Below, one piece after another: positions 326-15,961 of a stretch of 16,040 bases of DNA. Within the stretch, counting starts at the first letter, position 1; each line of letters begins with the position of its first letter. The DNA is from Oribacterium sp. (GTDB taxonomy: Bacteria; Bacillota_A; Clostridia; Lachnospirales; Lachnospiraceae), in the NCBI GenBank assembly GCA_017940955.1, contig JAGAXP010000023.1:1-16040 (forward strand), written 5' to 3'. The notes below the pieces were generated by a model. The model was not told the DNA's origin. It worked only from the letters and a program-made list of their open reading frames with translations, and ran no database searches. A program made the position numbers and the translations under genes.

Positions 326-859
326 TTAAAGCACTCTAAAAGTGATCATATCGTCAAGAGTAATATCCCGTATGTCACACTCTTCTTCACCCTTGAGATA
401 AGTCTGAATGTGATAAAACATCATGCAATCTCGCAATCTGGCTGTTATGGCATCGCTACGGCGCTTATAGCCATAACTCTTTAGCAAAGTCCGCAGTTTC
501 ATTCTTGTATAATGCTGGTCCGTGATGAATCTGATCCTCAATCTCATCAGCATAAAGAATAGGTCAAACTCCGAATATTCTGACATGAAGTCTTCTTTTA
601 CGAAAGTAACCCCTTTAGCCTTTAAATCTCTTTCTATTTTGGGAAATTCTTTATCAAGAGTTTCCTTATCTATAAGATAGTCTGCCCAATATAGGACATC
701 AGAAATCATTTTTTTCTTATTTCCCTTATAAAACGGATGAAGGTACTCGTATTCTAGTTCATAAAGTTTGTTTAAAAACTCCATCTGACTTTTACTGCCC
801 ATATCCTGACTCACAACAAAGTAAGCTATAGAATATGCATCATAATAAAGCTCAATCAT
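326..859 (-). CDS. Conserved-looking 177-residue protein coupled to the SF2 helicase-HNH gene
   Basis: I do not recognise this family. The protein is 177 residues, mixed charged and aromatic, with no signal peptide, membrane span, cysteine cluster or nuclease motif that I can see. The N-terminal third is acidic and tyrosine-rich ('MIELYYDAYSIAYFVV'). The middle is helical ('FDLFFMLMRLRIRFI'). The last 60 residues are basic and then acidic, with 'LKSYGYKRRSDAITARL' around 128-144 looking like a helix-turn-helix or nucleic-acid-contacting helix, and a tail 'DITLDDMITFRVL'. Its ATG overlaps the stop of the helicase-HNH gene in an ATGA arrangement (856-859), which implies translational coupling and fixed stoichiometry with the helicase. 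From this position it is probably an accessory, specificity or regulatory subunit of the helicase (inference). Confidence 0.8.
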   Translation of the reverse strand: MIELYYDAYSIAYFVVSQDMGSKSQMEFLNKLYELEYEYLHPFYKGNKKKMISDVLYWADYLIDKETLDKEFPKIERDLKAKGVTFVKEDFMSEYSEFDLFFMLMRLRIRFITDQHYTRMKLRTLLKSYGYKRRSDAITARLRDCMMFYHIQTYLKGEEECDIRDITLDDMITFRVL

Positions 860-3120
860 AATCTGTCACTCTTCTTTGCATTACAGCTTCTGCACAAAAT
901 CTGCAGATTCTCAGGAACTGTCTTGCCGCCTTTGTTCATAGGGATTATATGGTCAACCTGGAAAGGTATCCTGTCCTTTGCCTTCATGCCGCATTCAGCA
1001 CATACATAATATCCATTATCATCTTTAGCCTTAGCAAAGGCTTCATCGCGGAGCTCCTTCTCGTAATTCGGATTCAACTTCCTTATCTCATATAGAGACA
1101 TATTTGCCATCTCTTTTGTGCCGTACTTGACATTATTCTCATCGTCAAAAATGTCCGGGCTTGATAGCTTCATCATTTCAATGTCCAGCTGCTTCCAGAA
1201 ATATACTTTTCTTCCAAAGAATAGTCTAAGCATATCGTCATCGGTACTATCCCAGAGAGAATCCACATACTCTGCTTTCTTTCTTGGCCCCATATCTTCA
1301 TCCCAGATATGCTTTGCAATGGCAGCAACATTAAGCTTACTCTTGTCTACTGCGTCAAATGTATAGAATTTAGGTACGGCCTCATATTGTGCGTAATACT
1401 TCAATATCCTAATTACATCTGTTTCAGAATAAGGTGGAATCATTTCTCCAAGGAAATAGCTATCTCTTAACTGATCAGCCATCTCTTTAAGTGTATCATC
1501 CGTCATGAACCCATCATCAGTTTCTATATCCTTGAAAAGAACAGGAAGTGCCTCCATCATGTCTTCATATGATTTCTTCGTGCTGTCATAGACCATTACT
1601 TGATAAGAGTGATCCATGCCATTTTCCTCAAGATATGAAAATACATACATGCCTATCGGGATACGCTGTTCAAAAGGCACACGTTCCAACGCGGATGTAT
1701 CTACGGAATCATCAAGGATTGAAGCAAATTCCTCGATCTTAGATATTGCTATCATACGGATATCATGTTTCTGCTTATCTATCTCATTTTCAATAAAATC
1801 ATTATCTGTATCTATAAACAGATTCTCGGGATTTATCCATGCGATATGCTCGTTCCAGTTATCTATGAATGATACAATATGAGCATCAGGAGTTCCGCCG
1901 GCAGCCTCACCTCTCAGGGCACGTCCTATCATCTGTGTCATAAGGATTGTTGACACAGTGGGCCTAGCAAGAAATACAGTCTTTGTCTGAGGAAGATCCA
2001 CGCCTTCTGTGAGAATGTTTACATTCACAAGCACATTTATTTTTCCACTTCTATAGGCTTCAAGCTTTCTCTCATTATCTTCTCTGCTGATAGTAACTCC
2101 GGTAACTGAGTCTTTCACGTCAGAAACAATGAAATCTGCCGGGATTCCGGATTTATTAAAGAGTTTTGACAGTGCAATAGCATGTACAACATTTACTGCA
2201 AATACTATTGTCTGACCATAAATATCTTTATGCTTATTATAAGTGTCAACTATCAGCTTGTTTCTGGCTGCACTTTTGGCCATCTGTCCAGCGATAGAAT
2301 CAGGAATCACGTCCAAATGAGATATCTTTTCCCAATCATCAAGTCCAAGGTTATCTCCGAATGCCTCCTCCGTATAGCAACTCTCAAAGATAGGTTTCGA
2401 CAAAATACGTCTGTTTATCAGGTCTTTAAGCCCAATCTGATATGTAATACCGATATTACCCTTTGTGACCTTGCCTGATGACACACCATCTGAGAAAATC
2501 TTAGCAAGAAGTCCCTGCTCACTATCAGCGGTTCTGATTGGAGTTGCGGTTAATCCTATTATCTTTGCATTTTTAACACTTTGTTTAACGTAGTCTATGA
2601 TTTTCCTATATGTTTTTGCTGTGGAGTGATGAGCCTCATCAATAACCAGATAGACTTCTTTCTCGTCATTTATCCACGCACTAAGTGCATCCATATTTCT
2701 GCCAATGCTATCCTTACTGGCTATTAACAGATCATCTTTTGGCGTAATGTCAATTGATCTGTCATGATTAGTTGAACCAGAAACGATCCTATAATTGAAT
2801 GATGAAGCATTCGGAAGGCTTTCTGAATAGGCATACTTCTGGAAGGATTCAGCTGCCTGATCAAGCAGCATCTGTCTGTGGGCAATCCAAAGAATCTTCT
2901 TATGTTTGTTTAAGGCATGCTTAAGAAGCCACAAAGATGCTGTATATGTTTTGCCACCGCCTGTAGGTAATACAACCAACGTGCTATAGTTTGAGCATTC
3001 ATCAATAATATCAAGGTTCTCCATTGCCTTTTTCTGATGCTCATAAGGAATACGGCTATTACGCCCTGTCTTTGCCGAAACAAGTCCATGTGATTTAACT
3101 TCTACAAATGTATTTTCCAT
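856..3120 (-). CDS. SF2 DEAD/DEAH-box helicase with C-terminal HNH endonuclease domain
   Basis: From the ATG at 3120 the protein is 754 residues. It resembles the ResIII/DEAD helicases of restriction-type systems. Walker A 'PTGGGKT' is at 52-58, 'VIDEAHH' (DEAH box) at about 159-165, and motif III 'TATP' at 191-194. The helicase C-lobe has 'ILTEGVDLP' near 369-377 and motif VI 'QMIGRALRG' near 396-404. A roughly 270-residue linker follows. The last 55 residues are an HNH module: zinc-type 'CAEC' at 707-710, 'VDHIIPMNKGG' from about 722, 'ENLQILCRSC' from about 737. It should therefore track or unwind DNA with ATP and cut it with the HNH domain. Open frame continues upstream to a GTG at 3132, but that codon sits inside the Shine-Dalgarno-like GTGAGG, so an ATG at 3120 (or 3123) is preferred. 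It lies 38 bases after the deoxyribosyltransferase-like gene and overlaps the 177-residue gene by four bases. Confidence 0.92.
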   Translation of the reverse strand: MENTFVEVKSHGLVSAKTGRNSRIPYEHQKKAMENLDIIDECSNYSTLVVLPTGGGKTYTASLWLLKHALNKHKKILWIAHRQMLLDQAAESFQKYAYSESLPNASSFNYRIVSGSTNHDRSIDITPKDDLLIASKDSIGRNMDALSAWINDEKEVYLVIDEAHHSTAKTYRKIIDYVKQSVKNAKIIGLTATPIRTADSEQGLLAKIFSDGVSSGKVTKGNIGITYQIGLKDLINRRILSKPIFESCYTEEAFGDNLGLDDWEKISHLDVIPDSIAGQMAKSAARNKLIVDTYNKHKDIYGQTIVFAVNVVHAIALSKLFNKSGIPADFIVSDVKDSVTGVTISREDNERKLEAYRSGKINVLVNVNILTEGVDLPQTKTVFLARPTVSTILMTQMIGRALRGEAAGGTPDAHIVSFIDNWNEHIAWINPENLFIDTDNDFIENEIDKQKHDIRMIAISKIEEFASILDDSVDTSALERVPFEQRIPIGMYVFSYLEENGMDHSYQVMVYDSTKKSYEDMMEALPVLFKDIETDDGFMTDDTLKEMADQLRDSYFLGEMIPPYSETDVIRILKYYAQYEAVPKFYTFDAVDKSKLNVAAIAKHIWDEDMGPRKKAEYVDSLWDSTDDDMLRLFFGRKVYFWKQLDIEMMKLSSPDIFDDENNVKYGTKEMANMSLYEIRKLNPNYEKELRDEAFAKAKDDNGYYVCAECGMKAKDRIPFQVDHIIPMNKGGKTVPENLQILCRSCNAKKSDRL

Positions 3121-3126
3121 CATAGT

Positions 3127-3130
3127 CCTC
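3127..3130 (-). promoter_or_regulatory. Ribosome binding site deciding the helicase-HNH start
   Basis: GAGG on the minus strand lies 3 bases before ATG 3123 and 6 bases before ATG 3120. It overlaps the in-frame GTG at 3130-3132, so that GTG is unlikely to be the start. The six-base spacing favours the ATG at 3120. Confidence 0.5.
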
Positions 3131-3158
3131 ACTGATTAATCGTTTGTAAAACAACATA

Positions 3159-3791
3159 CTAGGATTCCAAATACCTAACCGCTTTCCCATGTGCTTTTGC
3201 ATATTCAATTTCCGAACGTGTGCTTTCCCCGATATAACCGCCTACGTTAATTACAAAAATAGAATCTGACAAGTCAATCTTTCGCTTATGCATGTCATCT
3301 AGCATTTCCTTTGTTTTGGAAACGGTTCCTTCATCCATTCCGTCCCAGACTTCGTCGTCACCGGAATGCCCAAAGAGGCCTACACTTATGACAATGTTGC
3401 CTTCCAGTGTAAGCCTCTTCTGTGTCTCTATAAATTCATTTTTAAACCGTGTGCTGCCGCATAATGTAACAACAGGATATCCGGACTTTATCTTCTTGAA
3501 ATTTTCAATCAAATGGGGGATACCCTGACATATCCAAAACTCTCCCGAAATCATCCCGGAAGACATTCCTCCATGGTCAAATCGTTTAACATGAACCATA
3601 GTGTAATATTTCAGCGGTTCACCTACCGCTTTCTCATAGTATTGACAGATTAAACCTGCCAAATCTCTTGGTGAGATGTCTAAAGATTCGCCTCTGAATG
3701 CTTCCTTCATCTCATCCCATAGATAGGGATCACCTCTCAGCCCCCATTGCTTAGGTTTATTTTCAAATATCAATGATAAATCCTTGCTCAT
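3159..3791 (-). CDS. Nucleoside 2-deoxyribosyltransferase-like protein with extra N-terminal domain
   Basis: The 210-residue protein has two parts. Residues 1-104 form a small domain with 'GLRGDPYLWDEMKEAF' (17-32) and 'HGGMSSGMISGEFW' (73-86). I have the impression this domain exists alone in other bacteria but cannot name it. Residues 105-210 look like the nucleoside 2-deoxyribosyltransferase/SLOG-related fold: first strand 'VVTLCGSTRFKNEF' (107-120), 'DLSDSIFVINVGGYIGESTR' (173-192) and 'SEIEYAKAHGKAVRYLE' (193-209). Glutamate 194, in the position before the 'EYA' helix, matches where the family keeps its catalytic acid. Known relatives cleave or exchange the base of deoxynucleosides; related folds in defence operons have been proposed to sense or cleave nucleotides. 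A good GAGGAG ribosome site precedes ATG 3791. The gene follows the YdbC-like gene by 18 bases and precedes the helicase-HNH gene. A 74-base fragment of a paralogue survives at 12207-12280. Confidence 0.85.
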   Translation of the reverse strand: MSKDLSLIFENKPKQWGLRGDPYLWDEMKEAFRGESLDISPRDLAGLICQYYEKAVGEPLKYYTMVHVKRFDHGGMSSGMISGEFWICQGIPHLIENFKKIKSGYPVVTLCGSTRFKNEFIETQKRLTLEGNIVISVGLFGHSGDDEVWDGMDEGTVSKTKEMLDDMHKRKIDLSDSIFVINVGGYIGESTRSEIEYAKAHGKAVRYLES

Positions 3792-3809
3792 ATCAGGACT
3801 CCTCGGATA

Positions 3810-4022
3810 TCACTTATTAAGCAGTTTCTTAAGTGCTGCTAATTCTTCATCAGTCAGAGTAACACCCTTACCCATCTTCTCGTGATCCGGAGACCAGTCA
3901 CGGATGTCATATTTTGGCGCTGCACCGTTCCAGGAGATTCGATTTAGCTCTTTTCTCCAGCCTTTAGCGTTCTCTGAGAGAACGCCGAGTTCTTCTATTA
4001 TTTCGTATTTGAAGTCTGACAT
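3810..4022 (-). CDS. YdbC-family PC4-like ssDNA-binding protein (copy 1)
   Basis: The 70-residue protein matches the YdbC family, whose Lactococcus member has a PC4-like fold and binds single-stranded DNA. The hallmark stretches 'EIIEELGVLSENAKGWRKEL', 'RISWNGAAPKYDIRDW' and 'SPDHEKMGKGVTLTDEE' are all present and cover nearly the full length. An in-frame ATG at 4118 would add 32 residues, but that extension overlaps the preceding gene, is absent from the second copy, and lies upstream of a good AAAGGA site seven or so bases from ATG 4022; the short form is chosen. It is 66/70 identical to the copy at 15749-15961. Here it leads directly, after 18 bases, into the deoxyribosyltransferase-like gene, so it may supply ssDNA binding to the downstream helicase-HNH module (inference). 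Confidence 0.92.
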   Translation of the reverse strand: MSDFKYEIIEELGVLSENAKGWRKELNRISWNGAAPKYDIRDWSPDHEKMGKGVTLTDEELAALKKLLNK

Positions 4023-5991: not shown

Positions 5992-6870
5992 TCATATAAT
6001 ACTTAGTGTATTCATCAATAACATCGATCCGCCAGGGACTTTCTTAATTGCTTGCAGTATCTTATCCGTAGCTTCAATAATACATCTTGCGGTATATCCG
6101 TCCTCCTTAGCTCCACCATACTGTTCCAAATAGTCGTCCGGATTATAGGTGACGTTTATCATACGGCATACGGTTTCACAGACCATTTCTGCTTCTGTTT
6201 CTTCTATTGCAGGATTTAATTCTTTCCCTCTATAAGGAGGTTTGCAGATTTGGTAGTTTTGTTCTTGCTTTCGGAGATCGGTCTCAATATGTCCACAAAG
6301 AATATGCCCTAGCTCATGAAGTAATGCATGGACACGTCCGGTATCATTTGTTGTACTACTTATAGTGACATAGTAGTTTGCCTGATAGGTTTTACTTTCA
6401 TCATACCCCCAAGTATATATCTCAGGTTGTTCACGCGGTCCTGCCTCACCGAGCTGTTTTGTCCCAAAGGACTTTTCATAGTAGCTAATGCCTAGATATC
6501 TACATGCTTCTTTTAACACAGGCAGAAACTTCTCTGCCATGGGCTGTGGCTCCGGAAAATGGAACTCTTTGAGTGATTTTATGTCTTGTGGTACATAACG
6601 TCCTTCGGTATCTGCAAAATCATAATAAAAATATACCGGCCCGAAAGGTTTCATAAGAACTATAGGTGTTGCGTCCGGTCGAATGGTTCTTCCATGGTTT
6701 ATCCATTCATTTTCAGTCAGGAGCCATGCAACACCAGGGCGCTGGAGAAATGCCAGCGCCGAATTAAACATGCTCTGATGCTGGTTGAACCATGCAAACA
6801 TAGCGTAGTTTACATAGTCTTCCCATCTGCCAAGTTCAATGATACGGTCAAAAAGATCCACTCTGCTCAT
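5992..6870 (-). CDS. Zinc metallopeptidase (ImmA/IrrE type) with ArdC-like N-terminal domain
   Basis: The 292-residue protein has a zincin motif 'HALLHELGHILCGH' with His185, Glu186 and His189, and a downstream 'IEETEAEMVCETV' helix at 222-234 providing the usual third zinc-ligand glutamate; this is the ImmA/IrrE-like arrangement. Residues 12-90, with 'SALAFLQRPGVAWLLTENEW' and then 'NHGRTIRPDATPIVLMKPFG', resemble the ssDNA-binding domain of antirestriction protein ArdC, where a similar '...QRP...W...GR.V.KG...I' run is found. ArdC proteins combine just these two domains and protect incoming DNA from restriction. ImmA-type peptidases instead cleave repressors to switch on mobile elements or stress genes. 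A GAGG site lies seven bases before ATG 6870. The gene is 109 bases after the giant helicase and 17 before the TPR-nuclease. Whether it acts against restriction or as a regulator is open. Confidence 0.85.
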   Translation of the reverse strand: MSRVDLFDRIIELGRWEDYVNYAMFAWFNQHQSMFNSALAFLQRPGVAWLLTENEWINHGRTIRPDATPIVLMKPFGPVYFYYDFADTEGRYVPQDIKSLKEFHFPEPQPMAEKFLPVLKEACRYLGISYYEKSFGTKQLGEAGPREQPEIYTWGYDESKTYQANYYVTISSTTNDTGRVHALLHELGHILCGHIETDLRKQEQNYQICKPPYRGKELNPAIEETEAEMVCETVCRMINVTYNPDDYLEQYGGAKEDGYTARCIIEATDKILQAIKKVPGGSMLLMNTLSII

Positions 6871-6979: not shown

Positions 6980-9900
6980 TTATTTTTTACACCACCATGC
7001 ATTTTTTCCTTTTGTTACTTTTCCTCCACCCTCTTTGTAAATGAAAGTAAATCCTAATTTCTTAGCTTTATTTACAACAGGCTGAAGCTCAGGACCTCCT
7101 AATATCCAAAGAGCACCATTTCGATTCCTTTTATCGATATACTTTACATTTGATTCTTTTAATAACTTAATAATTTCGTCTGATGATTCTTCATACAACC
7201 CCGGTATAGTGAGCTGCTCAACAAAAGAGTATTTCTTTTCGCCGGTCTTTTTAATTACCTTTTTATTGTCTTCATGCATCTCCTTATCTAAATTTTCTGT
7301 AATTTCCGTAGGCCCTTCATCCACTTTAGGATTTATAAGTTCAGTAGGATTTAATGCCTCCGCTACTGTTTCCATTACGTCAATAGGATCCGGTTCTTTA
7401 CCATATAAAATAATGGCAGCACGGTTCTTTACTCGACTTAATAGATCCGTATCTTTATTTATATAAGAATATTTGTCGGAATCTTCCGGATAAATTCCAT
7501 AATCAGTAAGATCAGAAATAACACGTTCAATCGTCTTTTCAGGATATCTATAATATTCACTGCCTCTTATACGAATAAATCTCCATCCCAAGCGTTCAAG
7601 TATTGTTTGGCGCTCCATATCTTCACGGATTTTTGCCTCACCACTGTGCCATCTTTCTCCATCACATTCAATTGCGACCATATTCTTTTCACAGACGGCA
7701 ACCATATCCAGTCTATACGCACCTACTTCCCATTGCTGTTCTATATGGTATCCCCGATCTGAAAGAGCGGTTGCTATTGAAACCTCAAATGGTGATTCGG
7801 ATTTTGATTCAATTTCATCATGCCGAATTGCCGATGCAGTAGGATTCAATGAATAATCAATAAGAATCTTACGCATATCACCTGGCTTTAAATCTATAGC
7901 TGGATCCAATGAATCAACAACCCATAATTGATCTCTGGCTCGACTGACCGCAACGTTATAACGCTTTTTAATAGCATCTTCTGTTCCGCTTCCGAGCATT
8001 CGAATAGGTCCATTACCATCGCCACTATCTACAAGACTCAGAAAGATCACGTCACGTTCATCGCCCTGGAAATTAGCAGAATTACCGCACAGGATGTTTC
8101 TCCTTGAAATATCGACCGGATCTATTTCCTGCTCTATCATTCGAGATATTACCTTTACCTGCTCATCACCGAGTAAGGATATGACTCCAATGGATTTATT
8201 ATCATATTCAGGCTGTTCTAAACATGCTTTTATAAGCGCAATTATTGCTTTAGCTTCATTTGTATTTGTTTTCCCTCCAGCATCACGTTTTCCGTTTTCT
8301 ACACGATAATTAACTACGGCCGGCTGTAAAATACTTTGGCTCGCATCCCTAAGAGGTTTGATTTTATAATCGTAGGAAAGCATATTGCTGAAACCTATTA
8401 TTTCCGGAACGCATCGGAAGTGTTCCCGGAGCATTAACGGCTGGAACGTTGTTGCTGCGATGTCATAAATAGATGTCTTAGAATTGTACAGATGAGAATT
8501 TGGTATCTTATCTTTTATATACATTTGCTCTAAGGAACTCATCTTAAGGACGTCCATACCAACAGCCATAGGACTGACCTGCTTGTCATCTCCTACGATA
8601 ATAAGTTTCTTACCCATGTATAATATAGCCAGAGACGAGATGTCAGACTGGCTTGCCTCATCAATGATGATGATATCGAATCTGTTTTCACGGGGATCAA
8701 GGCTTTCCAATGCTCTGTTTATAGGCATAATCCACCCAGGCACAGCGTTTTGACATTTGGTCATCAACTCTCGTGCCTTAGCCTTTAATGCAGGTGCCCT
8801 TTTTCCAGTACCTTTTCCTATTTTTTTGACGGTTTGCTTCCATCCGATAAGTGCTTGTTTCATGTCGATATCATGTTCAGTCCTATTCAGCAAATGATAC
8901 CAGGCACTTTTTTCAGCATATAAAGCTGTGATTTTCCTATAATCAGTTCCTAATCGTAAGCTTTCACTCTGCAGTTCACTTAACGGTTTTTTGGTGATAT
9001 CCTCAATGATTCCGAAAAACTGTTTCCACTTCCACGCATCTTCAATATTATCCGGTACAGTGAACTGGCCATGCATACCTTCACGCTTGCGGATAGCATC
9101 TGCCCATTCAGGTGCTACCGGGTCAAGAGTTTTTAGCATCATGCTACGCCTGTTTCTCATGACATTTTTGCTATATATTTCACTCAACTCAGCATAATGA
9201 TTAGAATATGCTTCCGTATCGCTACCGGATATATCCGAAACCATTGCTTTACATATCTGGCTATTTCCTCTTTTCCCAGCCGTCAGATTATTTAGCGTTA
9301 ACTTTATTGATCTTGAATCATTCTCTGATTTAACTAAAGTAGATAAAACTTCACAAATATCCGGAATTGTTCTATCTATTGCATTTAAAGCTTTATTTAT
9401 ATGTGTCGCGTCCGGATCAAGCTCATCTTCATCTAATACAGTTTCTTTTGGAATGCCGAGCAGTCTTAACTTATCCGCTAAAATTATATAGTCGCTGTCA
9501 TACCATTCAAGATATCTTTTGATTGTACGGATGTACTTATCAGCTATCATTTCCTGATTATCTGTATCTAACTCGTAAAATCTGCTTATACCTTGTGGTG
9601 ATAGAAGATCATTCCAATAGTTTGCACATTGATCACGATATTCATTTAACTCTATTTTATGAAGGATGACTTCAATTTCTTTAGTTGACTGAATTTTATT
9701 GCCATTTATTTTTACTGAATCGAGAACTTCACGATAATCCTTATGCAGCATCAAGCTTATCGCACTGATCTTCCCATTTTTCTCAAATTCTGAACGTAAC
9801 TTTTCAAATACAGGCTTTTTGCTTGATAAATCAAACGATCCATCTGTCTCTATATTAATTCCCAACTGCTCAGATATGATGGAATCTGCAAAATCTTTTG

Positions 9901-12010
9901 TCTTCTGAATCTGCTCGATCAACATGAGCCAGCGTTGTTTATAATTACCTCCCCTTTTTCCGTCTATAGCAACGGCTTTCATCCAATTCTCTATTGTGCC
10001 AAATGTGTCAACATAGCTTTTTAAATCCTCTACTGCCTCTAATGAAGGGTATGGCATTGATATAGCATTTTTAAGTCCGTTGATTACTATGCTCTTATTA
10101 TAAGGATCTGCATTTACTTTCCATCCATTCTTTTCGGAAACGGACTTTATGAATTTCTGAGATTCCCAGAGTGCATGACATATATTGATAAAAGCACCTG
10201 GAGACATTAAAGATTTAGGATCCGGTAAATCTGTCGCTAATTCAGTCTCATCATCCTGTGTGATCACCTCGTTACTCCGGTATAAATCGGTCAATTCATC
10301 AAATGTCAAAGGTAAAGGAGCATATAATTTTACCTTTCCCGGTATGTAGGATAGATCCTGCATATGATCCACAACAAATTCGGCTGCTTTTGACGGAGAT
10401 ATACTTTCTCCATTGTATACAATGCAGTCATTTTCAGTGTTTATTATCTCGAAAATCTTTTTACGAGTTTTTGCAAGCTCATTTATGATACCGCGCCGTT
10501 CAATAGCCAGCGAATCCATTTCCTTTTTTAACGCATGAGATGTAGTATCAGACATATATGTTGTGATACCATCAATGGATCTCTCCATGTCTACGTTAGA
10601 GTCATCAAGGATAGATACACATAAGTTTTGAAGACTCCCGTAAATTTTCTCTTTTAATACCTTAAGAGCTTTTGTTGTTTGGCTGGTAACGAGAACACTT
10701 TTACCTTGTGCCAAAAAGTGTCCCATGAGATTTGCAATAGTATGAGTCTTTCCTGTTCCCGGAGGGCCCTGAACCAGAACAGCATTATATCTCTCTATTC
10801 TTCTGGCTATTTCCAACTGTTCCTTGTTGGCTTCTTTGGATAAAAGAATATCGACACTTTCACCCCCAACTGCAGCCAAAAGCTCTTCTATGGATTCTTC
10901 TTTATCATTTTCAGGCACGTCAATGGTACCACCACATACAATATCATTTATAGGTGCCGGTACTTCTCCTGTTTCCTTAATGTGTCCTATTATTTGATCA
11001 ATTGCCTTTATTGTGCCATCCAGTCGCTTTCTTATGATATAGCAGGGTGATATATACAGTAATAATCTTGAATTGGTTTTCCAATTATCCGGAATACCGG
11101 AATCAGAAAATGTACTTTCAGATGATAATGAATGAATTAGAGTTTTTAAAAAAATCGGTGTGTCATTTCGGTCTAAGGGATGATAATCATTATTCTGTAA
11201 ATCTTCATTAAGAGTGTCAACTCTTTCAAGATTAACATCTTCCATTACCTGAAATACAGAAGAATATAATTCTGAAGGTACTTCAGCATTAATAATGTAT
11301 ATTGTATTCTCGTTAGCATCGTATTCAAGCTTTACACGATGTGTCAAAACCGGGTGATTAATATTTCCATTTTCCTTATCCAAGATGATACCATTTGCGA
11401 CTATCATCTCTTCAGTTTCTGATTCACGTTGCAGTTCAAAATACAGACTATAAAGATCAGAAAATAGGTCACGTGTCGCCTCAGTTATTTTTTGCTTTTG
11501 ACACCATATATTCCTTGAATCATTCCATTTTTCAAAGGCAGAAACCCTATTTGGATCTGCTTCAAAAAGGATGATCTCTTTTCCCGAATCGTCACCATCT
11601 CTGTCTATAGAAAAGGCACTTACATCTTCAGTTTTAATTTCTGTTAAACTTGATTTTACTTCTGCATCATTTCTATAGTCCTCCCACCCAGGGATTAGCC
11701 ATTCTTTAAAAATGTCCTCCGGTTCAGGACATTTCGTAAACTCGGGTTTATGAACAACCAATAAAATATTATCTTTATTAGGTTCAGATTCATCATCTTC
11801 CACACGATCCTGATAAAACACCTGTATATTATCCGGGTCGTTTGGTAAATTTGATAATTCATAATGCCATATATGGTTTTTCTTATAATCAAGAATGGGT
11901 GTTTGCTTTAGTTTGTTTAATTCTTCGATAAATTGAAATAGTGATATAACCTTGTTTTGCTTAGTTAACTCATCATCCTTGACAGTAATATTTTCAGTCA
12001 TATCTTGCAT
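6980..12010 (-). CDS. Giant SF1 helicase fused to Vsr/MTES_1575-like nuclease and a C-terminal extra domain
   Basis: The 1676-residue protein carries Upf1-like SF1 helicase motifs. Walker A 'GPPGTGKT' is at 415-422, 'IIDEAS' with the DEAS box at 1117-1120, 'VGDDKQVSP' shortly after, 'QGDERD' at 1315-1320 and motif VI 'NVAVSRARDQLW' from 1352. About 700 residues separate motifs I and II, as in DUF4011-type helicases. A nuclease domain follows: 'SPFEVSIATAL', 'YRLDMVAV' with Asp1435, 'VAIECDGERWH' with Glu1448, and 'RLGWRFIRIRGSEYY' (1473-1487), the REase_MTES_1575/Vsr pattern. Residues 1594-1676 form another small domain ('DKRNRNGALWILGG', 'EGGGKVTKGKNAWW') that I recognise only as a recurring C-terminal add-on. 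Similar SF1 helicase-Vsr fusions have been reported as stand-alone phage defence (Hhe, from memory). AGGAGG lies 11 bases before ATG 12010, a long spacing. It is separated from mcrC by 274 bases and may have its own promoter. Confidence 0.92.
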   Translation of the reverse strand: MQDMTENITVKDDELTKQNKVISLFQFIEELNKLKQTPILDYKKNHIWHYELSNLPNDPDNIQVFYQDRVEDDESEPNKDNILLVVHKPEFTKCPEPEDIFKEWLIPGWEDYRNDAEVKSSLTEIKTEDVSAFSIDRDGDDSGKEIILFEADPNRVSAFEKWNDSRNIWCQKQKITEATRDLFSDLYSLYFELQRESETEEMIVANGIILDKENGNINHPVLTHRVKLEYDANENTIYIINAEVPSELYSSVFQVMEDVNLERVDTLNEDLQNNDYHPLDRNDTPIFLKTLIHSLSSESTFSDSGIPDNWKTNSRLLLYISPCYIIRKRLDGTIKAIDQIIGHIKETGEVPAPINDIVCGGTIDVPENDKEESIEELLAAVGGESVDILLSKEANKEQLEIARRIERYNAVLVQGPPGTGKTHTIANLMGHFLAQGKSVLVTSQTTKALKVLKEKIYGSLQNLCVSILDDSNVDMERSIDGITTYMSDTTSHALKKEMDSLAIERRGIINELAKTRKKIFEIINTENDCIVYNGESISPSKAAEFVVDHMQDLSYIPGKVKLYAPLPLTFDELTDLYRSNEVITQDDETELATDLPDPKSLMSPGAFINICHALWESQKFIKSVSEKNGWKVNADPYNKSIVINGLKNAISMPYPSLEAVEDLKSYVDTFGTIENWMKAVAIDGKRGGNYKQRWLMLIEQIQKTKDFADSIISEQLGINIETDGSFDLSSKKPVFEKLRSEFEKNGKISAISLMLHKDYREVLDSVKINGNKIQSTKEIEVILHKIELNEYRDQCANYWNDLLSPQGISRFYELDTDNQEMIADKYIRTIKRYLEWYDSDYIILADKLRLLGIPKETVLDEDELDPDATHINKALNAIDRTIPDICEVLSTLVKSENDSRSIKLTLNNLTAGKRGNSQICKAMVSDISGSDTEAYSNHYAELSEIYSKNVMRNRRSMMLKTLDPVAPEWADAIRKREGMHGQFTVPDNIEDAWKWKQFFGIIEDITKKPLSELQSESLRLGTDYRKITALYAEKSAWYHLLNRTEHDIDMKQALIGWKQTVKKIGKGTGKRAPALKAKARELMTKCQNAVPGWIMPINRALESLDPRENRFDIIIIDEASQSDISSLAILYMGKKLIIVGDDKQVSPMAVGMDVLKMSSLEQMYIKDKIPNSHLYNSKTSIYDIAATTFQPLMLREHFRCVPEIIGFSNMLSYDYKIKPLRDASQSILQPAVVNYRVENGKRDAGGKTNTNEAKAIIALIKACLEQPEYDNKSIGVISLLGDEQVKVISRMIEQEIDPVDISRRNILCGNSANFQGDERDVIFLSLVDSGDGNGPIRMLGSGTEDAIKKRYNVAVSRARDQLWVVDSLDPAIDLKPGDMRKILIDYSLNPTASAIRHDEIESKSESPFEVSIATALSDRGYHIEQQWEVGAYRLDMVAVCEKNMVAIECDGERWHSGEAKIREDMERQTILERLGWRFIRIRGSEYYRYPEKTIERVISDLTDYGIYPEDSDKYSYINKDTDLLSRVKNRAAIILYGKEPDPIDVMETVAEALNPTELINPKVDEGPTEITENLDKEMHEDNKKVIKKTGEKKYSFVEQLTIPGLYEESSDEIIKLLKESNVKYIDKRNRNGALWILGGPELQPVVNKAKKLGFTFIYKEGGGKVTKGKNAWWCKK

Positions 12011-12206
12011 AATGATGTATTCCTCCTACACATTAAGCATCTAGTTATTGCTTATATGTTTTCCTTCACATATTGTAATTTACCATGTCACGTAATACTC
12101 GCTTCTGATGTCGTGGCTTGTATCCCATCAGGCGGGATTTCAGTTCTCATTATGTTAACCAACATTAGGCGGGCGCACTGGCTGGTACTTGGTCCTATCA
12201 TCCCAA
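12011..12206 (-). other. Scar-like intergenic stretch between the gene fragment and the giant helicase
   Basis: No intact gene is visible. Immediately after the deoxyribosyltransferase fragment, the minus strand contains a short open run in another frame, ending at a stop near 12153, that reads 'FWDDRTKYQPVRPPNVG'. It looks like the tail of a protein but I cannot identify it. A small inverted repeat (ATCCC 12122-12126, GGGAT 12134-12138) has no T-run and is not a convincing terminator. The ribosome site AGGAGG for the next gene is at 12022-12027. I found no convincing -35/-10 pair. Confidence 0.45.
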
Positions 12207-12280
12207 AATGCCCAAAGAGACCTACGCTTATGACAATGTTGCCTTCCAGTGTAAGTCTCTCCTGTTTCTATATAAATTCA
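12207..12280 (-). pseudogene. Fragment of a deoxyribosyltransferase-like gene with in-frame stop
   Basis: By eye, about 68 of 74 bases match 3365-3438 of the intact gene without gaps. Translated, it gives 'EFI', then a TAG stop, then 'KQERLTLEGNIVISVGLFGH', against intact residues 119-142 'EFIETQKRLTLEGNIVISVG' and 'LFGH'. The match stops sharply at both ends: on one side only four bases separate it from the mcrC stop codon, on the other it runs into unrelated sequence. It is therefore a relic of a second copy of the gene, cut at codon 119 and again at about codon 142. The mutated fourth codon (GAG to TAG) confirms that it is dead. Confidence 0.88.
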
Positions 12281-15748: not shown

Positions 15749-15961
15749 CTATTTATTCAAAAGTTCCTTAAGTGCTGTTAATTCTTCATCTGTAAGGGTG
15801 ACTCCCTTACCCATCTTCTCATGGTCTGGCGACCAGTCTCGGATATCATACTTGGGTGCTGCACCGTTCCAAGAGATTCTATTTATTTCTTTTCTCCATC
15901 CTTTGGCATTCTCTGAGAGAACGCCGATTTCTTCTATGATCTCGTATTTAAAATCTGACAT
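15749..15961 (-). CDS. YdbC-family PC4-like ssDNA-binding protein (copy 2)
   Basis: This 70-residue paralogue of the gene at 3810-4022 differs at only four residues (Leu12Ile, Leu26Ile, Ala62Thr, Lys66Glu), whereas the DNA differs at about 34 of 213 positions. Most changes are thus silent, so both copies have been kept under selection. All YdbC signature stretches are present, including 'SENAKGWRKE', 'ISWNGAAPKYDIRDW' and 'DHEKMGKG'. AGGAG lies eight bases before ATG 15961. It precedes mcrB by 18 bases, the same spacing as copy 1 to the deoxyribosyltransferase-like gene. Co-transcription with mcrBC is likely; whether it helps McrBC, for instance by binding ssDNA exposed during cleavage, or is a leftover of an older module, cannot be told from sequence. 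Confidence 0.92.
   Translation of the reverse strand: MSDFKYEIIEEIGVLSENAKGWRKEINRISWNGAAPKYDIRDWSPDHEKMGKGVTLTDEELTALKELLNK

Follow-up and report, generated by a model that had tools for sequence, protein, structure and literature searches.

A helicase-HNH gene and its small overlapping partner as a conserved pair and candidate restriction module in Oribacterium

The locus and the question

Do four closely spaced genes on a contig of Oribacterium sp. form one system, or does the conserved unit comprise fewer of them? The stretch analysed (contig JAGAXP010000023.1 of assembly GCA_017940955.1, 16,040 nucleotides (nt), hereafter the window) carries genes for a YdbC-like protein, a deoxyribosyltransferase-like protein (NDT), a superfamily 2 (SF2) helicase joined to an HNH nuclease, and a protein of 177 residues (orf177). 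A sequence-only reading had proposed these genes as one four-gene system. According to our analysis, the conserved unit is two genes, helicase-HNH and orf177, and not four, so that a loose four-gene guess is replaced by a small two-gene machine. All four reported open reading frames (ORFs) were found in the window, all on the minus strand:

326-859, minus strand: orf177, 177 residues, with a 4-nt overlap with the helicase gene
856-3132 (GTG start, 758 residues) or 856-3120 (ATG at 3120, 754 residues), minus strand: helicase-HNH gene, SF2 helicase plus HNH nuclease
3159-3791, minus strand: NDT gene, encoding two domains; probable passenger that is not conserved alongside the pair
3810-4022, minus strand: first YdbC/PC4-like gene, probable passenger (Pfam PC4, 9.9e-13)

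The ORF coordinates confirmed the tight spacing described earlier, with 18 nt between YdbC and NDT, 38 nt between NDT and the helicase ATG, and a 4-nt overlap, ATGA, between the helicase gene and orf177.

Conservation of the helicase-HNH and orf177 pair

A scan of genome contigs with orf177 as the query gave four Lachnospiraceae loci (L001-L004), in each of which the helicase-HNH gene overlaps orf177. The family sample comprised 397 genomes from the family of the L001 genome, and 11 of them matched the helicase at E ≤ 1e-60. Seven of these 11 carry the HNH end (two of the seven broken), and orf177 adjoins the HNH-bearing copy in 7/7; the partner in G027 is a divergent version of 235 residues, detected by profile. 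Three genomes with helicases of 862-870 residues, in which the match ends before the HNH (G006, G361, G114), and one with an N-terminal fragment on a 5.1-kb contig (G307) were left out of the pair count. The reverse search revealed orf177 in nine of the 397 genomes, adjoining the helicase in seven; the remaining two are a remnant with five stops and no helicase within 16 kb (G135) and a 210-codon frame of 26% identity on a 5.3-kb contig (G093). In the class sample, orf177 was found in one genome out of 391, that of L001 itself.

The two frames overlap by 1-8 nt in 11/11 loci, including the window and two loci with a broken helicase gene, where the counts rest on chosen start codons (TTG in L027, GTG in L029). 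Because the overlap recurs in relatives, it cannot be attributed to chance. At the level of sequence, this co-occurrence fits the idea that orf177 is a subunit needed by the helicase-HNH protein.

YdbC and NDT as probable passengers

YdbC and NDT are found upstream of the pair in 2/11 loci, the window and L001 from an Oribacterium relative, and the L001 block is 91% identical in DNA to that of the window. Eight of the other loci have sequence upstream of the pair (L004 has none), and neither gene was detected there. Of the proposed four-gene system, the helicase-HNH/orf177 pair thus stands, recurring with overlapping frames, whereas the membership of YdbC and NDT was not borne out. A four-gene system with these two proteins as sensors would agree with the tight spacing and shared strand of the genes in the window and in L001, but we consider it very improbable, since both genes are missing at the eight other loci and their relatives adjoin other defence-type genes elsewhere. 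We therefore dropped it, and regard YdbC and NDT as probable passengers, which may help this one locus.

Two further elements of the window are related to these genes:

15749-15961, minus strand: second YdbC/PC4-like gene, 18 nt upstream of mcrB
12202-12279, minus strand: decayed NDT remnant, between mcrC and the superfamily 1 (SF1) helicase gene

The two YdbC copies are 83.8% identical in DNA over 228 bp, one lying 18 nt ahead of mcrB and the other 18 nt ahead of NDT. The decayed NDT piece, which follows mcrC, spans 26 codons with 85% identity and one in-frame stop. The SF1 gene comes after McrBC in the window, and in L001 it comes after orf177 and another NDT remnant. These repeated small genes may reflect an exchange of defence cassettes between them.

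NDT relatives turned up at 23 places in 17 of 200 genomes, and G001 was the only one with YdbC no more than about 1.5 kb away. YdbC relatives occurred in 27 of 200 (32 places, 30 fetched), and NDT was near them in G001 and, as a 25-residue match, in L078. Neighbours were scanned for some of these places, chosen by eye (seven of the 30 fetched for YdbC). Among nine YdbC-neighbour proteins from seven loci, Pfam identified DUF6361 twice, a type III endonuclease domain, TIR and a type I R domain, and two proteins had no Pfam family. Varied defence-type genes were thus present in L072, L074-L076 and L100, including ZacA in L075 (PADLOC, one protein); many more YdbC places adjoin genes that resemble, by eye, those of mobile elements (L083-L092). 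Nine NDT-neighbour proteins from seven loci gave PADLOC matches to PDC-S11, PDC-M09A, IetS, DrmC, a GmrSD-like family and PglZ, with no match for three of them. In this bacterial family, relatives of YdbC and of the C-terminal half of NDT have several unrelated genes of defence type as neighbours, a caution that tightly spaced neighbours on the same strand of a defence island may be passengers.

The C-terminal half of NDT occurs alone or fused to other parts. Such halves or remnants adjoin genes of the McrC, IetS, DrmC, PDC-S11 and GmrSD/PglZ types (L037, L039, L040, L053, L071), as if marking where cassettes meet. A Macro-NADAR protein (L047:1492-3228) carries the N-terminal domain of NDT (3486-3791 in the window) at its end, a hint at possible NAD or ADP-ribose chemistry.

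Domain structure of the two proteins

With YdbC and NDT set aside, what could the two remaining proteins do? Their parts are the following:

1843-3054, minus strand: SF2 helicase core, RadD/SauUSI-like (helicase residues ~27-430)
1150-1344, minus strand: helical domain resembling the N-terminal half of orf177 (helicase residues ~597-661)
862-1008, minus strand: HNH nuclease, CxxC...CxxC (helicase residues ~709-757)
647-841, minus strand: N-terminal helical domain of orf177 (residues ~7-71), similar to helicase 597-661
329-589, minus strand: predicted winged helix of orf177 (residues 91-177), basic motif YxRMKLRTLLKxYGYKRRS

Pfam recognized ResIII, Helicase_C and HNH (9.5e-14) in the large protein. 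Residues K61 and T62 of the Walker motif, D165/E166/H168 of the DEAH box, R404/R407 of motif VI and H728/N742/N751 of the HNH were identical in 41/41 aligned helicase-HNH rows, and D727 in 40/41. The structure model was mediocre (pLDDT, the predicted local distance difference test score, 70.6), and its fold matches came from the core only. Taken alone, residues 430-705 matched no Pfam family, and the search against PDB gave two chains with E above 1.

For orf177 the model was better (mean pLDDT 84.5), and its C-terminal half is predicted to be a basic winged helix; it is probably the DNA-binding partner of the helicase-HNH protein. Neither orf177 nor NDT had a Pfam, PADLOC or NCBIfam match at E ≤ 0.001, and the orf177 profile gave no matches among PDB sequences. 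Protein searches returned 1521 relatives for helicase residues 430-758 and 164 for orf177 (181 with a wider profile); 120 were listed for each, and the few named ones among them include Oribacterium and Selenomonas. On plasmids, no orf177 match was found, and none of the 27 records matching the helicase covered 80%. Likewise, none of the 1015 phage records matched covered 80%, and the scans of viral contigs gave no confirmed case.

Two side observations concern relatives of the helicase. A Deinococcus radiodurans plasmid protein, WP_027479745.1 (L025:5971-8583), is a distant helicase-HNH relative that stands alone, and the annotation shows no orf177 near it. Two SF2 helicases, of 862 and 870 residues (L033:7480-10781, L034:456-4248), are related as well and match only before the HNH; each is followed by a gene, for 220 and 363 residues, respectively, with no PADLOC match. 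By eye the two following genes have similar starts, and they possibly belong to a second two-gene set.

A helical domain apparently shared by orf177 and its helicase

The relationship between the two proteins appears to go beyond adjacency. When cut segments were aligned by hhalign with the distant relatives L104 and L105 included, the N-terminal half of orf177 matched the helicase domain with a probability of 94.9, E 4.4e-8 and a score of 43.0; the maximum was 21.4 in 300 column permutations, and the reversed profile gave 18.3. Among 25 windows along the helicase, 561-644 and 589-672 alone scored high (31), the next reaching 16, and the A2 windows without L104 and L105 gave E 1.4e-5. In the A3 set, the orf177 profile found its best local match at residues ~597-661 in 35/35 ordinary helicase-HNH proteins. 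These matches were low (4.3-12.4 bits), with 25/35 above the best of 1050 shuffles (6.1), and the rows are not independent counts because they are related.

L104 and L105 were the two distant helicase-HNH relatives found besides G001 in a phylum sample of 398 genomes (E ≤ 1e-100). L104 encodes 849 residues in one ORF, in which residues 19-93 match the C-terminal half of orf177 (independent E-value 1e-8, 21.7 bits) and residues 693-744 its N-terminal half (3e-5, 10.5 bits; best of 2000 shuffles 9.6 bits). This gene ends 266 nt from the contig end, so that a separate orf177 could lie downstream. L105 is a TPR-tailed protein of 1151 residues, of which 635-694 match the N-terminal half (2e-8), with no separate orf177 within its 16-kb locus. 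Both the domain match and the one-chain relative are new here, and orf177 seems, judging from these alignments, to be partly built from the same module as its helicase.

Several results weigh against this interpretation. Full-length alignments gave E of only 0.008 and a probability of 4.8. L104 and L105 were added after their match had been seen, which favours the best hhalign value. The helicase of the window itself reached 4.3 bits, below the best shuffle, and the Deinococcus relative gave no match for the shared domain.

We tentatively suggest, as a possibility we would not yet lean on, that the pair belongs to unnamed two-part restriction machines in which part of the motor gave rise to the recognition subunit. 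In this view, a helical docking domain was duplicated and joined to a winged helix, so that specificity could be exchanged as a separate gene. Such a subunit could have split from a one-chain ancestor like L104, or have been re-fused later as in L104. This would hint at a route by which an enzyme may give rise to its own separate subunit for recognition.

The same data bear on whether orf177 could instead restrain its neighbour, in a toxin-antitoxin-like or abortive pair in which the helicase-HNH protein harms host DNA. The AbiEi antitoxin is a winged-helix protein, and 4/66 orf177 members weakly match the AbiEi model (best E 0.0016). The fixed two-gene overlap would suit such a pair, and in Hachiman a helicase restrains a nuclease (PMC12278908). 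However, the AbiEi matches are near chance, the orf177 of the window has none, and the fusion of the winged-helix half to the motor in L104 fits a functional component better than a detachable antidote; we find this explanation distinctly unlikely.

Proposed mechanism and comparison with known systems

We give somewhat better than even credence to a two-gene, ATP-driven DNA-restriction module, in which orf177 docks on the SF2-HNH protein and contacts DNA. The large protein would be an ATP-driven SF2 translocase bearing a C-terminal HNH nuclease. The N-terminal helical domain of orf177 may dock on it by like-with-like pairing with the related domain, and the basic winged helix would contact DNA, gating or placing the motor. 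On meeting its target, which might be a modified base, a DNA end, a fork or some phage structure, the motor would run and the HNH would cut, presumably acting against phages. This coupling would resemble that of SauUSI or PbeA, which have an SF2 motor with a different nuclease.

The sequence-only reading knew of no named defence system with this set of genes, and none matches as a set in the libraries searched; nor is the pair named in the titles or abstract openings of the literature searched. SauUSI, a modification-dependent restriction enzyme of type IV in which an SF2 translocase is joined to a nuclease, was the best PDB sequence match of the helicase (7clg, 1.6e-21) and also the top Foldseek match, and PADLOC mREase_IV matched residues 29-423 only (5.4e-24). 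SauUSI-type enzymes combine a PLD-type nuclease and a target-recognition domain in one chain. Here, in contrast, the nuclease is a C-terminal HNH and the putative DNA-binding part is on a separate small gene. As PMC7913695 describes it, SauUSI has its own target-recognition part and its nuclease domains hold the dimer together. Membership of the SauUSI type was rejected, as Pfam shows helicase domains and HNH and residues 430-705 match nothing.

PbeABCD likewise includes a nuclease fused to an SF2 helicase (PbeA) and a small, rapidly evolving partner (PbeB), and it has an HKD nuclease in PbeA, a CxC-type ABC-ATPase and a DndE-like protein (PMC10853773). The helicase part matches PDLC02707 (7e-23), but the nuclease of PbeA is HKD and that of the pair HNH. 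This candidate was rejected, given that the helicase part of PbeA alone matches and no PbeB, PbeC or PbeD was among the matches listed for 10 window proteins (the best 25 of 26 for the helicase).

Hachiman (HamAB) is also a two-protein nuclease-helicase set, described in PMC12278908 as a complex whose helicase holds the nuclease in check; its nuclease (HamA) and helicase (HamB) are separate proteins, whereas in the pair one chain carries both domains. It was rejected in turn, with 0/66 orf177 members matching HamA (PADLOC) or DUF1837 (Pfam) at E ≤ 1 and no HamB among the best 25 of 26 matches of the helicase; both libraries presumably include models of these proteins. By the features tested, the pair does not belong with SauUSI, PbeA or Hachiman, although it would work like the first two, enzymes that combine an SF2 motor with a nuclease. 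It is apparently a helicase-nuclease with a separate, home-grown recognition subunit.

Genomic surroundings and the question of repair

The closest fold of the helicase core is RadD, and the helicase-nuclease pair XPB-Bax1 is among the Foldseek matches; to our knowledge, neither has an HNH or a partner of the orf177 family. The pair might be a DNA-repair or genome-integrity module, a RadD-like helicase with a nuclease that lies in variable islands by chance and has no part in defence. We consider this unlikely, since three features fit defence better: the patchy presence (11/397 in the family, including helicase-only relatives, and orf177 in 1/391 in the class), the broken copies L030 and L031 with transposase-like genes nearby (by eye), and the presence of restriction or BREX genes close by in L002, L003 and L029.

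In some genomes, genes of restriction or BREX type are found close to the pair: HsdS in L002, HsdM/HsdS in L003, PglZ, GmrSD and WYL in L029, and McrBC in the window. PADLOC matched seven of ten chosen neighbour proteins from four loci and none of the other three. On the opposite side, L026, L027 and L028 had no clear defence neighbour by eye, and one L028 neighbour scanned was a carbon-nitrogen hydrolase. From the neighbouring genes we infer a role in defence for the restriction module; they are supportive and do not amount to an enrichment test, because they lack a random baseline.

Beyond these genes, too, the window looks like a defence region: it contains McrB/McrC (the McrB carrying an EVE domain), the second YdbC, an SF1 helicase that includes a nuclease domain and a TPR protein whose end is NucS-like; a 113-residue ORF is also present. 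The SF1 helicase (6980-12010) has 1676 residues and an MTES_1575 nuclease domain, and it is related to Hhe and ProA, though with scores that fall far below the cutoffs of NCBIfam. The ORF at 5992-6870 encodes 292 residues with no Pfam match and contains HELGH, which we take to be a metallopeptidase-like motif.
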